DNA from: a virus
Length of the DNA stretch: 40,514 bases
Reading direction: 5' to 3' (one strand)
Virus record (IMG/VR): IMGVR_UViG_3300033144_004516
Span: 1 to 40,514 of that record
In this document: positions 791-34,506 of the stretch, in pieces
Layout: the number at the start of each line of letters is the position of its first letter
How positions within the stretch are numbered: the stretch's first letter is position 1
Made by a program: the position numbers and the translations under genes
The notes under the pieces: model-generated
Databases searched by the model: none
The model's input: the letters and a program-made list of their open reading frames with translations, nothing else
Told to the model about the DNA's origin: nothing

Positions 791-796
791 TTGTGT

Positions 797-804
797 GGTA
801 TAAT
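797..804 (+). promoter_or_regulatory. extended -10 promoter P1 for small RNA 1
   Basis: The TGGTATAAT core has a perfect TATAAT at 799-804 preceded by TG one base upstream, the extended -10 form that needs little or no -35. No good -35 is seen at 17 bp. The same GTGGTATAAT block recurs at 871-880. Transcription would start near base 811. Confidence 0.6.
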
Positions 805-810
805 GTACCC

Positions 811-870
811 AACTGCCCTGCAACGTGTAGGGACAGTCCTTAAGTCGTCCACCAGGGCGGCTTTTGATTT
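811..870 (+). ncRNA. candidate small RNA 1 with intrinsic terminator
   Basis: About 55-60 bases between promoter P1 and a terminator, with no sensible ORF. It contains a hairpin (CTG-CCCT / AGGG-A-CAG, roughly 812-836). It ends in a 7-bp stem GTCGTCC-ACCA-GGGCGGC (844-861, with G-U pairs in RNA) followed by TTTTGATTT. No family is recognised. The inference rests on tight spacing of promoter, hairpin and terminator. Confidence 0.45.
844..870 (+). terminator. intrinsic terminator of small RNA 1
   Basis: Stem 844-850 pairs with 855-861 around an ACCA loop and is followed by TTTTGATTT. The T tract merges into the second promoter element, so this unit ends where the next begins. Confidence 0.5.
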
Positions 871-872
871 GT

Positions 873-880
873 GGTATAAT
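873..880 (+). promoter_or_regulatory. extended -10 promoter P2 for tRNA-like RNA
   Basis: A second TG-G-TATAAT, with TATAAT at 875-880. The predicted start, 6-8 bases downstream, falls at 886-888, exactly where the tRNA-like 5' strand CGGGTAG begins. Confidence 0.6.
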
Positions 881-885
881 ATCGG

Positions 886-1050
886 CGGGTAGTGGTGGAA
901 TAGAGACACTAGGAGACCCGTAAGACTCGCATGGGAGCCGTGCTTTCTGCGGCGTACCGCGTTATTGTGAGTTGTCCAAGGGTGAGAGTCCCTTGGCTAC
1001 CCGGCCAGAACTGCTCCCCGCCGTTCCTCGGAACTGGCGGGGTTGTTTTT
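886..1050 (+). ncRNA. structured RNA with tRNA-like ends
   Basis: The RNA would start with CGGGTAG (886-892), which pairs perfectly with CTACCCG (997-1003). This is followed by GCCA, the layout of a tRNA acceptor stem, discriminator base and CCA. The next bases (TGGTGGAAT...AGACAC) resemble the D arm of tRNA-Leu. Just before the 3' strand lies a 7-bp hairpin CCAAGGG-TGAGAGT-CCCTTGG where a T arm would sit, but its loop is not TTCRANY. Between them is a GCGG-CGTA-CCGC hairpin and no normal anticodon arm. At 118 bases it is too long for an ordinary tRNA and too short for one with a group I intron. It is bounded by P2 and a strong terminator. Likely a stand-alone RNA or a degenerate tRNA-derived element; function unknown. 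Confidence 0.55.
1016..1050 (+). terminator. strong intrinsic terminator
   Basis: A 7-bp GC stem, CCCCGCC (1016-1022) with GGCGGGG (1036-1042), contains an inner GTTCC/GGAAC pairing. TTGTTTTT follows directly. It ends the tRNA-like RNA unit. Confidence 0.85.
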
Positions 1051-1100: not shown

Positions 1101-1583
1101 ATGTCACGCCTCTTTGTTCTCTCCATGCTTCTCGTCCTACTACTTATTGGGGCCAGTGTAGGCATTACCTATCTCACCTTAGAGTATACGGGGTTCAGGG
1201 GTCCGGTTGGTGGGCAGGGGCCACAAGGGATACAGGGCATACAGGGACCGCAGGGGATTCCTGGCGAACAAGGCCCACAGGGGCTGCAGGGGCAGCCCGG
1301 GGAGGCGGTTCTTTTCTTCTGTGACCCGCCGTGGGTCTCGGGCTACAATACGTGGACGGTGTATGGCATCGGGTTCCCTGAGGACGTGGTGGTTCGCCTT
1401 GAGTTCGAGCGTTGGGGTGTATCAGGTTGGCAGGACTGGTTCACAGAGACCGTCGCGTCAGATGAAAATGGGTCCTTTGAAATCTACTTCGAGGGCCTGG
1501 GCTTCTACGCCCTCGTCTACTCAATGGCAACCATCGATGGCCAGCCCTGGGCGTATACCCCGATATGGTTCGGTCCAGCCTAA
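1101..1583 (+). CDS. membrane-anchored collagen-like protein
   Basis: 160 residues from ATG 1101, chosen because GGGGGG lies just upstream; an earlier in-frame start would run through the promoter and terminator. Residues about 4-28 are a hydrophobic signal-anchor ([19 protein letters not shown]). Residues about 31-67 are Gly-X-Y collagen triplets rich in Gln and Pro ([20 protein letters not shown]). The remaining ~90 residues are aromatic and strand-rich, perhaps an Ig-like domain. Bacterial and phage collagen repeats form trimers used in fibres or surface stalks. With its own promoter and position beside the integrase, this may be a lysogenic-conversion surface protein; a virion fibre is the alternative. 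Its stop overlaps the convergent integrase stop by four bases. Confidence 0.75.
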
Positions 1584-2611
1584 GTGGAGGCCTGCCGACC
1601 AAACGTTCTCCACCGTTCCGCTGAACTCTTCTCCTTTAACCGCAATAGCGGGTCGTGTATCCTATGTGCCCTCATGCCGTCCTCCTGGTTGATGGTAGTC
1701 AGATACCTCTCCGTGGTTCTCATGCTGCTATGACCAAGTATCTCCTGTAGGTATCTCAGACTGCCTCCACTTCGCAGGAAGTCAGTCGCAAACGTATGCC
1801 TTAACGTATGTGCAGAGCACCGAATATCCGTAATCCCGGCCCGCTCCTTCAACCTCTCTATGGCAATCTTGACGCCCTCTCTCGTCAACGGTCGCCTTTC
1901 CTCACTTAGCCATAGATAGTCCGTTTCTGGCCGATCAAACTTGAGGTAGCTTATCAGGGCTCGGCAGACTACTGGCGACAGATACAACCTCTGCTGCTTG
2001 TTGTTCTTGCGCCAGACAAGAACCTCGTGATTTGTGAGATCAAGGTTCCCCATCCTGAGATTACTCAACTCCGCCAGCCTCATGCCCGTACCATAGAACA
2101 TGAGGATAATGGCCCTGTTGCGGGCTCCCAGAAAGGTGTTGACGGGGCACAAGCCAAGTAGTCTGTCGATATGCTCATGAGACAGGATGGGTACGATAGG
2201 CCGAGGAAGTGGGGGGCGCTTCACGTGCTGCATGGGGCTCGCCTCTATCGCGCCTTCCTCAATAAGCCACTGGAAAAACCGGTGCAAGCCCCGGTAGAAC
2301 TTCTCCTGCGTGCTAACCGCCAAGCCCCTCTGCTTAAGAGATAGCAGCCATGCCCTGATGTGAGCAGGCTCAATCTCCCTGACCTCAAAGGGCAGACCTT
2401 CCCTCTCCAAGAAATCCCGGAAGTTTCCCAGAACCCCCCGCATATTGGAGAGCGTGCCTGTTGCCCTCCCTTCTGATGTATAGGCCAATAGGAGGTATGC
2501 GATTTGTCTATCGATACTAGGCTGTTTAGACTGGGTTCCAGCTAGGTAGGACCTCCACTGTGGGGCCTTGTTTGGACTAGCATATACAACCATGTTTTCA
2601 TATTCGGGCAC
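1580..2611 (-). CDS. int: tyrosine recombinase, phage integrase
   Basis: 343 residues with the XerC/D-type plan: N-terminal SAM-like core-binding domain (about 25-125) and catalytic domain (about 140-325). Active-site residues are visible: Arg178 (GTGMRLAEL), Lys in RKNNKQ near 202-205, His268 and Arg271 (HTLRHTF), His294 (LGHSS) and nucleophile Tyr303 (TERYL). It should integrate and excise the phage at the tRNA-Ile site 17 bp upstream of its start. The longest frame begins at a GTG whose GGAG lies only one base away, so ATG seven codons in (2593-2591) is a possible real start. It is transcribed away from attP. Confidence 0.95.
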
Positions 2612-2736: not shown

Positions 2737-3117
2737 CTAGTTTAAGGATCGCAACATAATCCTTACGGCCTCTTTCTTTTCTGGCGACAGCTTGGCCCAG
2801 GTGTAGAGGAAAAACTCTGTAATGTCGTATGGTATGTGGCCGTTCGGGCAGCCCTCTGAGGATTCGCCGTTCTCCCAACACAGGAAGTCCAAGCTCCGCC
2901 CGAGCACCCTGGCGATACGCAACAGCGTGTCCAGTTCCGGCAGGCTGCTTCCTTTCACCACATTGCTGATGGTCATACTCGGCAAGCCAGTGCGCCGCGC
3001 CAACTCCGCCTGAATCATCATCTGGCGGTCCAATTCTCCACGTATTCTCTCCGCCACCCTCTGCGCTATCCGCTTTCGCTGGGCAAGTTTTTGTTCATTC
3101 GTGAGTTTGCCTTCCAT
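2737..3117 (-). CDS. XRE-family (Cro/C1-type) repressor
   Basis: 126 residues. A helix-turn-helix occupies about residues 34-80 (AELARRTGLPSMTISNVVKG, then SLPELDTLLRIARVLG), the classic HTH_3 fold. The N-terminus is basic. The C-terminal part (IPYDITEFFLYTWAKL...) may form the dimer interface; there is no peptidase domain, so it is not a LexA-type self-cleaving repressor. It is divergent from the early operon across a region with promoters in both directions, which fits a lysogeny regulator controlling itself and the rightward promoter. Confidence 0.88.
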   Translation of the reverse strand: MEGKLTNEQKLAQRKRIAQRVAERIRGELDRQMMIQAELARRTGLPSMTISNVVKGSSLPELDTLLRIARVLGRSLDFLCWENGESSEGCPNGHIPYDITEFFLYTWAKLSPEKKEAVRIMLRSLN

Positions 3118-22954: not shown

Positions 22955-24544
22955 TTGGCACAGACACCGGAGAATCCCAGGGTAAACCTGGAGTACGTCG
23001 AGAAACTGAAGGAAGAGGCTGAAAACGAGACCTATGATACCCCGGAGGATCGGACCAAGGCGCTTGTCGGATGTGAGACTTCCTTCGTCTACTTCCTTCT
23101 TCGCTTCGCCAATATCGTAGAGACATCCACAACAACCACCAAGGGCGGCACCATCAAGTTCGAGCTGTGGCCGCATCTTCTCGATGTCATATGGGCGCTC
23201 AAGTACAAGCGATTTATCGTCATCCTCAAGGCCCGCCAGATAGGCATATCGTGGCTCCTTGCCGCCTATGCACTCTGGTATGCCCTTTTCCATGACGGCG
23301 CTACGGTCCTTCTCTTCTCCAAGGGTGAAGAGGAGGCAATGGAGCTCTTGGGTAAGGCCAGGCGTATGTATAACCAGCTCCCCGACTGGCTGCGCCTGAA
23401 ACTGGGCAAGGACGCTCTCACGGAGATGGAGTTCCCCGACAGGGTATCTAAGATAAAGGCTTTCGCCTCCACACCGAGCGCCGGCATCAGCTACACGGCC
23501 TCCGTAATCATCGCCGATGAGTGGGAGTACCACCCGTACGCCGTAGATCACTGGAACAACGCCAAACCCACGGTTGACGCAGCTGGTGCCCAGTGGATAG
23601 GGTGTTCCACAGTAGATAAACGGAAGCCTGAGACTCTAATGAAAAGCATCTACAAGGATGCCAAAGAGGGCCGGAACAATTTCTACCCCTTGTTCTTCCC
23701 GTGGAATGTAAGGCCCAGCAGGTCCGAAGGATGGCTTGATGAGGTGATGAGGTCGACGCCCGAGAAGGCCATGGAGGGCATGCCCAGGGACCTCTACAGG
23801 GAGCAGAACTACCCGGCCAGTGAGGAAGAGGCTCTCAGGCCGTCCCGTACGATTGCCGCCGTGGACCTGACCGTAGTGGATGACATGAAGAAGTGCTGTC
23901 AGGCCCCGCTCAACGTCGTGAGGCAGGGTCTCGACCCCCGGGTGTGTCATATTTACCAGGAGTATCAGACAGGCAACCTGTATGTGGCGGCATCCGATAT
24001 CGCCCACGGGGTAGGGCTCGACTACTCTGTGACGGCTGTTATGAACGTCCGCACGGGTGCTGTGGTGGCCGATATCATGCACAACCTGCTCCCCCCAGAC
24101 GAGTTCGCCATGCATACGCTGGCCCTGCTTAAATACTACCAGAACCCCATCTGGTGGCCGGAGGACAACAACTGGGGGGCCGTGGTGATCAGCAAGGCCG
24201 TGCAGATGGGATACCAGAATTTCGGCTATCGGGACATAAAACACCTCAAAAGGGGCTGGCATACGGACGAAGAGAGCCGGATGGAGCTGTTCGGAGCTCT
24301 GATTCCAGCCTTCAACACCCGTCAGATTACCATTTTCAACTATGACGGCCTTCTACAGTTCGAGTATCTCATCAGAAACGCCGCTAAAAACGGCAGAATC
24401 GAGGCCCAGGAAGGTAAGAACGACGATTATCCCGTCGCCGTCGGCATCTGTGTGGCCAAACAGGGCGAGGTTTTGGAGAAAATGACGCCTCGAAAGGCGA
24501 AAGATACACTGCATTTCAGGTTATCACAGCCGGTCAGGAGATAA
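22955..24544 (+). CDS. terL: terminase large subunit
   Basis: 529 residues from TTG 22955. The ATPase domain has a Walker A variant KARQIGISW (92-100) and Walker B VIIADEWE (184-191), with a coupling TPSAGISYTAS before it. The nuclease domain begins near 345 (YVAASDIAHGVGLDYSV) with further Asp residues in VADIMHNLLPPDEF and GKNDDYPVAVGI. The enzyme pumps DNA into the procapsid and cuts the concatemer. Length is normal. The headful or cos type cannot be judged from sequence. Confidence 0.92.
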   Translation: MAQTPENPRVNLEYVEKLKEEAENETYDTPEDRTKALVGCETSFVYFLLRFANIVETSTTTTKGGTIKFELWPHLLDVIWALKYKRFIVILKARQIGISWLLAAYALWYALFHDGATVLLFSKGEEEAMELLGKARRMYNQLPDWLRLKLGKDALTEMEFPDRVSKIKAFASTPSAGISYTASVIIADEWEYHPYAVDHWNNAKPTVDAAGAQWIGCSTVDKRKPETLMKSIYKDAKEGRNNFYPLFFPWNVRPSRSEGWLDEVMRSTPEKAMEGMPRDLYREQNYPASEEEALRPSRTIAAVDLTVVDDMKKCCQAPLNVVRQGLDPRVCHIYQEYQTGNLYVAASDIAHGVGLDYSVTAVMNVRTGAVVADIMHNLLPPDEFAMHTLALLKYYQNPIWWPEDNNWGAVVISKAVQMGYQNFGYRDIKHLKRGWHTDEESRMELFGALIPAFNTRQITIFNYDGLLQFEYLIRNAAKNGRIEAQEGKNDDYPVAVGICVAKQGEVLEKMTPRKAKDTLHFRLSQPVRR

Positions 24545-33648: not shown

Positions 33649-34506
33649 GTGGCGACTGGCACAAGCGAGTATCTAGACAACACTAGCCAGGACTACTTCA
33701 TCCCTGAGGTATGGTCCCCGATTATCCTGGACAGCAGAGAGGCAAACCTTCTGTTTGCCCAGTTCTGTGATACCAGGTATGAGAAGGGGCTCACGAAGGG
33801 TGATGTAATCCACGTAAACGACCTGCCGCTTCTATCGGCAAGGGAAAAGAGTGAGAACACGGCTGTTCAGTATGAGACGGTATCTCACTCGCAGACAGAC
33901 ATCAGTATCGACCAGTACTACTATGCGGCTATCGCAGTCGAGAAAGAGACGATGGTACAGGCCCTCAAGGACCAGGCGGCCATGTTCGCCCCCAAGATGG
34001 GCTATGCCCTTGCCCTTCAGATCGACGATACGGTGGCCGGACTGGTTGACGACCTGAACAACCATGTAGGCACCCTCACTGTAGGCACGACCGTCAATAA
34101 CTGGATTCGTGCAGTGCAGTACCTTGATGATGCCAACGCTCCCGATGAGGACAGGGTGGCTATTGTCAGCCCCGCCGAGTGGGGCAACATCATACAACAG
34201 GACTTCTTCGTCAAGGACTCCTACAAGGAGTCCGTGGGGCAGCTTTCGGCAAAAGCGAAGAGGGGCTACTTCGGCAGCGCCCTGGGCGTGAACTTCTACA
34301 AGTCCAGCAACGTGGAAGGTACAAACGCCGCGGGGCACGACAATGCCCTCTTCCACAAGTCGGCCTTTGCCCTGGTAAGACAGTTGGCCCCCACCACGGA
34401 GTCGCAGTATGACATTGACTACCTTGCCCGAAAGATCGTGTCTTACGAGCTGTTTGGCACACAGGAGATGAGGAACGATCACGGCGTATGGGTTAAAGGC
34501 AAATAG
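33649..34506 (+). CDS. major capsid protein
   Basis: 285 residues, GTG start. The opening (TSQDYFIPEVWSPIILDSRE), spine-helix-like ALKDQAAMFAPKMGYALALQ with IDDTVAGL, VAIVSPAEWGNIIQQDFFVK, and the A-domain end (GVNFYKSSNVEG … ALVRQLAP) follow the HK97-fold/P22-coat-type pattern. The lone capsid candidate, after the scaffold. No N-terminal delta domain, in agreement with a separate scaffold. Confidence 0.85.
   Translation: MATGTSEYLDNTSQDYFIPEVWSPIILDSREANLLFAQFCDTRYEKGLTKGDVIHVNDLPLLSAREKSENTAVQYETVSHSQTDISIDQYYYAAIAVEKETMVQALKDQAAMFAPKMGYALALQIDDTVAGLVDDLNNHVGTLTVGTTVNNWIRAVQYLDDANAPDEDRVAIVSPAEWGNIIQQDFFVKDSYKESVGQLSAKAKRGYFGSALGVNFYKSSNVEGTNAAGHDNALFHKSAFALVRQLAPTTESQYDIDYLARKIVSYELFGTQEMRNDHGVWVKGK

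Follow-up and report, generated by a model that had tools for sequence, protein, structure and literature searches.

The window, i.e. the whole stretch of DNA analysed here, is a 40.5-kb virus record of IMG/VR with the gene content of a temperate tailed phage, including genes for an integrase (1580-2611, minus strand), a Cro/CI-type repressor (2737-3117, minus strand), a terminase (22955-24544) and a major capsid protein (33649-34506). Since it also carries, at 886-1007, an RNA that an earlier note had described as tRNA-like, the question arises what such an RNA, which has the D region and a T-like arm of a tRNA and lacks the anticodon arm, would do in a phage. From our point of view, the explanation that best covers the observations as a whole, to which we give slightly less than even credence, is that the RNA belongs to a tRNA-Leu-derived family and would act in trans as a tRNA mimic or decoy. 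There are precedents for noncoding RNAs that resemble tRNA, namely in plant viruses and in tmRNA, Y RNAs, t-elements and yjdF; a tRNA-mimic family in tailed phages was found neither in Rfam nor in the open-licence papers searched, and the latter do not describe the present family either.

The tRNA-like RNA and its predicted transcription unit

All elements of the RNA lie on the plus strand. As the earlier note had stated, the 7-base strand CGGGTAG (886-892) pairs perfectly with CTACCCG (997-1003) over a span of 118 nt, which yields an acceptor-like stem (P1), and GCCA, resembling the 3' end of a tRNA, follows at 1004-1007. Enclosed by this stem are a tRNA-Leu-like D region (UGGUGGAAUAGAGACAC, 893-909) with the D stem GUG/CAC, a variable insert (910-973) in the place of the anticodon arm, within which a helix P2 (924-931/966-973) is possible, and, preceded by GU (974-975), a T-like arm (976-996) made of a 7-bp stem (976-982/990-996) and the loop UGAGAGU (983-989). 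Folded alone, 886-1007 reaches -46.6 kcal/mol with a z-score of -1.4, which is not exceptional, and the case therefore rests on the comparison with homologues. For the window RNA, Rfam returned nothing at its own thresholds and a chance-level match (E 1.5) at a permissive one, and ARAGORN called neither a tRNA nor a tmRNA. As both are likewise blank for the six homologues described below, with ARAGORN and the Rfam tRNA model RF00005 missing all seven members, the statement that the RNA fits no known family has held up.

Just as had been noted, there are two copies of the extended -10-like element GTGGTATAAT, one at 795-804 and the other at 871-880 (both exact, plus strand); in the whole 40.5-kb window they are the only ones, even if one mismatch is allowed. 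Since the TATAAT of the second copy ends at 880, transcription of the tRNA-like RNA would be expected to start at about 887, so that the proposed start exactly at 886 stands to within 1-2 nt. Of the terminators claimed for the two units, a hairpin next to a T run is present in both cases: the tRNA-like RNA is followed by an intrinsic terminator (1016-1050, plus strand) with a stem at 1016-1042 and a good T tail (TTGTTTTT) up to 1050, the stretch folding at a z-score of -4.86, and the first unit has a hairpin at 842-863 with a poor tail (TTGATTTG), the stretch 838-870 folding at -3.95. This terminator-like hairpin is the second of two in a first predicted small RNA (811-866, plus strand), which folds at a z-score of -4.87 against shuffles. 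The description of 795-1050 as a tandem cassette is only weakly supported, as the first unit (795-870) is without a known homologue and the other members of the family lie in other settings. A sigma-70 scan gave no -35 partner for the copy at 795-804. Two separate small RNAs from this region are so far a prediction, and it is equally likely that 795-870 provides the region with an additional promoter upstream.

Exact copies of GTGGTATAAT are also present in related phages (L028:1792, plus strand; L028:5296, minus strand; L004:2011; L030:19191, minus strand; L025:1505), in two cases with the same following bases (AAGAGGTG), which suggests a common class of extended -10 promoters.

Homologues in other phages

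By capsid, the nearest relatives found for the window phage are L005 and L006 (75-77% identical); the integrase as query yielded no relative. L006 carries a homologue of the RNA (L025:1697-1870), located 8 nt before a genuine tRNA-Met, with the P1 strands UGCCAUG/CAUGGCA, the D region UGGCGGAAUAG... and the T-arm loop UGUAAGU. A T-arm pattern common to the window and L025 returned 31 loci, six of which have the D motif upstream (L096, on the same contig as L025, and L112, L119, L123, L129 and L135), the other 25 being without it. With the window, these six IMG/VR phage contigs give seven members or, L123 and L135 being related, about six lineages. The contigs were chosen by D and T motifs, and P1 pairing was left out of the selection. 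At fixed positions flush with the motifs, P1 forms 7 of 7 pairs in five contigs, as it does in the window, and 6 of 7 in L129; the chance of 7/7 is about 0.001 and that of 6/7 or better 0.013. The observation made in the window is therefore above chance.

As the collections were scanned with motifs from two members, the diversity of the family, all known members of which come from metagenomes, is underestimated. Exact and gapped patterns derived from the window alone retrieved nothing in viral or genome contigs, a scan with the D motif gave mainly chance matches and genuine phage tRNA-Leu genes, and blastn against cultured phages and plasmids found zero family members. Among genomes, the capsid profile reached only two distant Gemmatimonadaceae contigs, and the covariance model of the RNA had zero matches in 298 Gemmatimonadota genomes, a negative result of little weight. 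A block (GGRGACCMGWAAGAC) initially taken as shared by the window and L025 was dropped when comparison with further members traced it to nothing more than a long D loop in L025.

Conserved structure and covariation

Common to all seven members are a 7-bp P1, a D region of the form UGGYGGAA...GAC[G/A]C, an insert that measures 64-93 nt, and an unusual T arm, its stem having 7 bp and its loop reading UGNRAGU; the D stem is GCG/CGC in the members other than the window. In the alignment of the seven, 99% of the cells are paired over 14 pairs (P1 plus the T stem), the T-stem cells to 100%, and 8 of the 14 pairs have changed on both sides. Compensatory change in the 886-892/997-1003 stem, on which the earlier note had staked its reading, is hence found among related phages, with six of the seven P1 pairs changed on both sides. 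The covariation score is 0.70, as compared to 0.20 in shuffles and 0.05-0.20 when the strands are slid. In tRNA numbering, the invariant positions include U8, GG and GGAA in the D region, and in the T loop U54, G55, A58, G59 and U60. A covariance model assigns 85-108 bits to the seven members, the next best matches in 1 Mb being phage tRNA-Leu genes with 21-23 bits. Helix P2, directly 5' of the T arm in most members, is only suggestive (combined P of about 0.04). In some members, above all L119 and L025, pairing can continue beyond P1 into the flanking sequence.

The acceptor-like stem and the T stem form a stack of 14 bp, 2 more than the 7 + 5 bp of a tRNA (PMC4919913). Where an anticodon stem (5 bp, 7 nt) would directly follow the D stem, no consistent helix was detected in any of the seven members. 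With a tRNA-Leu-type D region and a T-like arm present and the anticodon arm missing in the window and in all homologues, as had been claimed for the window, we are highly confident that these RNAs form a family defined by two stems, a conserved D region and a missing anticodon stem. A role at the DNA level, as an attachment or packaging site, was rejected, since the positions of the members bear no relation to those of integrase and terminase, and since changes that keep the pairing speak for a strand that folds.

Relationship to tRNA-Leu

With tRNA-Leu, especially that of phages with UGC in the T loop, the family shares U8, the GGYGGAA and GACRC of the D region and a 7-bp acceptor-like stem, and with the UGC-containing phage genes also a 7-nt T loop starting with UG and the absence of the D-loop GG. 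It is unlike tRNA-Leu in that it has no anticodon arm, that the T stem comprises 7 instead of 5 bp in all members, so that the 12-bp stack of a tRNA (7-bp acceptor plus 5-bp T stem) is absent, that the base after P1 varies, and that CCA is encoded in one member of seven, namely that of the window. An encoded CCA end as a general property is thus not supported by the comparison; the genuine tRNAs beside L025, L112 and L135 do encode it. In the family RNAs, the usual way of forming the elbow contacts G18-U55 and G19-C56 is not available.

In a sample of phage tRNA-Leu genes (loci L040-L141), biased by the search motif that retrieved them, the T loop contains UGC in 14 of the 16 that lack the D-loop GG, and of the 6 that have it, 0 contain UGC and 5 UUC. 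In these genes, disappearance of the D-loop GG and the change of U55 to G go together, so that the G18-U55 elbow contact is given up in a coordinated manner. As the family carries both derived traits, the sequences make descent from this subtype of phage tRNA-Leu likely.

Given the clear likeness of D region and T arm to tRNA-Leu, one could also think of an ordinary tRNA-Leu gene with an intron or of a decaying tRNA pseudogene, and two other phages do carry tRNA-Leu-like genes with very long anticodon loops. Both versions were nevertheless rejected and are, in our opinion, highly improbable, since no anticodon stem occurs at a consistent place in the seven members, the 7-bp T stem and the UGNRAGU loop are found throughout, and the compensatory changes, together with the conservation between L123 and L135 described below, count against decay. 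The tRNA-Leu-like genes at L081:10093-9960, L081:9519-9401 and L041:2229-2126 (all minus strand) are 104-118 nt long, were missed by ARAGORN and have a normal 5-bp T stem and apparently at least 40 nt in the anticodon loop; they possibly represent introns or another anticodon-altered class.

Insert and tRNA-like part

The phages carrying L123 and L135 are about 90% alike in protein, their longer proteins being 87-96% identical. Between these two members, 23 of 24 aligned positions are identical in P1 and the D region and 28 of 30 in the T arm and the 3' strand of P1 (93-96%), and the two differences in the latter part, A-U to G-U and U-A to U-G, preserve pairing. The two inserts align with a score of 15.0 versus a shuffle mean of 14.9, and neither flank beats the best of its own shuffles. 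No conservation of insert sequence was found among the members, and none of six inserts folded alone exceeded shuffles. Because the inserts fold no better than shuffles and both halves of the tRNA-like part are kept, it is the latter that is conserved and on which selection appears to act.

One could, however, also imagine that the tRNA-like part serves as a cap for stability or processing and that the work is done by the insert, fitted to the target of each phage, a division of roles for which the tRNA-like domain of tmRNA offers a comparison. Both tmRNA and the family combine an acceptor-like stem, a D region and a T arm with another domain in the place of the anticodon arm; the family RNAs differ in that they comprise 118-170 nt, have no ARAGORN or Rfam tmRNA match and contain no recognised tag ORF or pseudoknots. 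An insert is present in every member, and between the close phages of L123 and L135 it was wholly replaced under a retained cap, both of which fit this idea. What a working part would lead one to expect in the inserts, i.e. conserved sequence or folding beyond that of shuffles, was not seen, and complementarity to the own phage genome is nothing unusual in six of the seven members. An antisense role of this kind was dropped, with a 13-nt match in L123 as the sole finding above chance. We consider a cap with a working insert unlikely, albeit one of the two main rivals.

Genomic context

In the window, the RNA has its own promoter-like element directly before and its own terminator directly after it. 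The L025 member is followed by tRNA-Met and then a terminator-like hairpin, that of L112 lies directly 5' of a tRNA-Ile and that of L135 about 90 nt 5' of a tRNA-Tyr. The L119 member is found in an intergenic stretch of about 500 nt between same-strand genes, along with other terminal-stem elements, and the L129 member is flanked by an ERF-like gene, as judged from its sequence, and by an ORF of 57 aa in the same orientation. No gene common to all seven phages was found, so the partner of the RNA, if there is one, probably belongs to the host.

The second main rival, which we rank equally low, is that the RNA is a t-element, i.e. a tRNA-like signal in cis within a longer transcript, where host RNase P and tRNase Z would cut and thereby part the neighbouring RNAs. 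For t-elements, tRNA enzymes do the cutting and charging is not required (PMC11658184; PMC4326828), and neither an unconserved insert nor an absent CCA would matter. The positions of L025 and L112 directly 5' of a genuine tRNA and of L129 and L119 between same-strand genes are in line with such a signal. Yet a location at the edge of another transcript applies to L025, L112 and L129 and not to the window, where the flanking promoter-like element and terminator leave little to separate, and the 14-bp stack, together with the extended P1 of some members, should put the cut out of register. The t-elements of plant mitochondria and Haloferax are the nearest functional precedent, being likewise tRNA-derived, non-translating and sometimes located beside other transcripts; unlike them, the family is phage-borne, has a longer T stem and forms a free-standing unit in the window.

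That the RNA is a tRNA-derived cis-acting leader or riboswitch controlling the next gene, as in yjdF, seems to us only marginally less improbable than an intron or pseudogene. The precedent is that a tRNA-like fold can be a riboswitch, that tRNA can be reused as regulatory RNA and that tRNA leaders raise translation (PMC9142559), and in L129 an ORF starts shortly after the RNA. However, the members have no common downstream gene, a terminator precedes the next gene in the window, and the next element in L025 and L112 is a tRNA. With the yjdF riboswitch, a homologue of tRNA-Lys, the family has in common that a noncoding RNA reuses the tRNA fold; tRNA ancestor and sequence are different, Rfam gives no match, and in the window the RNA is not an mRNA leader. 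Neither t-elements nor yjdF would readily account for a free-standing unit with a 14-bp stack. The tRNA-like module of bacterial Y RNA (YrlA) is a further example of a bacterial noncoding RNA that mimics tRNA; for the family, Rfam gave no match and no Ro-binding stem was recognised.

A possible tRNA mimic or decoy

Transcription of the RNA, its action in trans, its partner and its effect are what we infer from sequence. In the mimic or decoy reading, the 886-1007 RNA would represent a phage RNA family that has so far gone undescribed and goes back to phage tRNA-Leu. Selection for pairing would have kept the "top half" of the tRNA (acceptor-like stem, D region and T arm), a variable insert would have taken the place of the anticodon arm, and the T stem would have gained 2 bp. 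Because it has its own promoter-like element and terminator, the window RNA probably acts in trans. Most likely, a host factor that binds tRNA, such as an enzyme of tRNA maturation or modification or a defence that senses tRNA, would be offered the tRNA-like elbow together with the acceptor/T stack; with the acceptor end out of register, the RNA would be a bait or competitor instead of taking part in translation. The simplest account is that of a tRNA-derived noncoding RNA in which elbow and acceptor/T stack are what matters.

Taken by itself, the function as a trans-acting mimic or decoy is the reading we favour, tentatively, ahead of a cap with a working insert and of a t-element; it rests on seven members from about six lineages. 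We are a shade more hesitant to propose a new class of phage RNAs, namely anticodon-less mimics with an exchangeable central domain and a stack 2 bp out of register, which would bind a host tRNA enzyme or a defence that senses tRNA and so block or distract it. The mimicry would in any case be inexact, because the elbow contacts cannot be made in the usual way and tRNA enzymes should have difficulty accommodating a stack of 14 bp. The extended P1 of L119 and L025 is moreover unlike a free tRNA end, and for L119 and L129, placed between same-strand genes, a role in cis is possible. Several bacterial defences sense or cut tRNA, which would make a mimic that is unable to translate a natural candidate for counter-defence, and with the covariance model and the seven sequences of the family, means of testing this idea are at hand. 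One prediction is that the 14-bp acceptor/T stack may be bound by tRNA enzymes but should be badly processed.

Further observations

The intergenic array at L119:650-1120 includes, among further terminal-stem elements around the family member, a degenerate tRNA-like element that ends in CCA (about 651-720) and the element GGGGGCTGG...CCAGCCCCC. The phage contig of the L135 member contains a match to the int-alpA RNA (RF02996) at L135:1437-1508. In the window, 1101-1583 encodes a short collagen-repeat protein with a hydrophobic N-terminal segment, which adjoins the integrase and lies away from the structural genes. Finally, two type-II hammerhead ribozymes, both above the Rfam gathering score, are located at L026:3439-3502 and L026:5165-5227 (minus strand; contig IMGVR_UViG_3300024262_000093), in the same phage as the nearest capsid relative and a member of the family.
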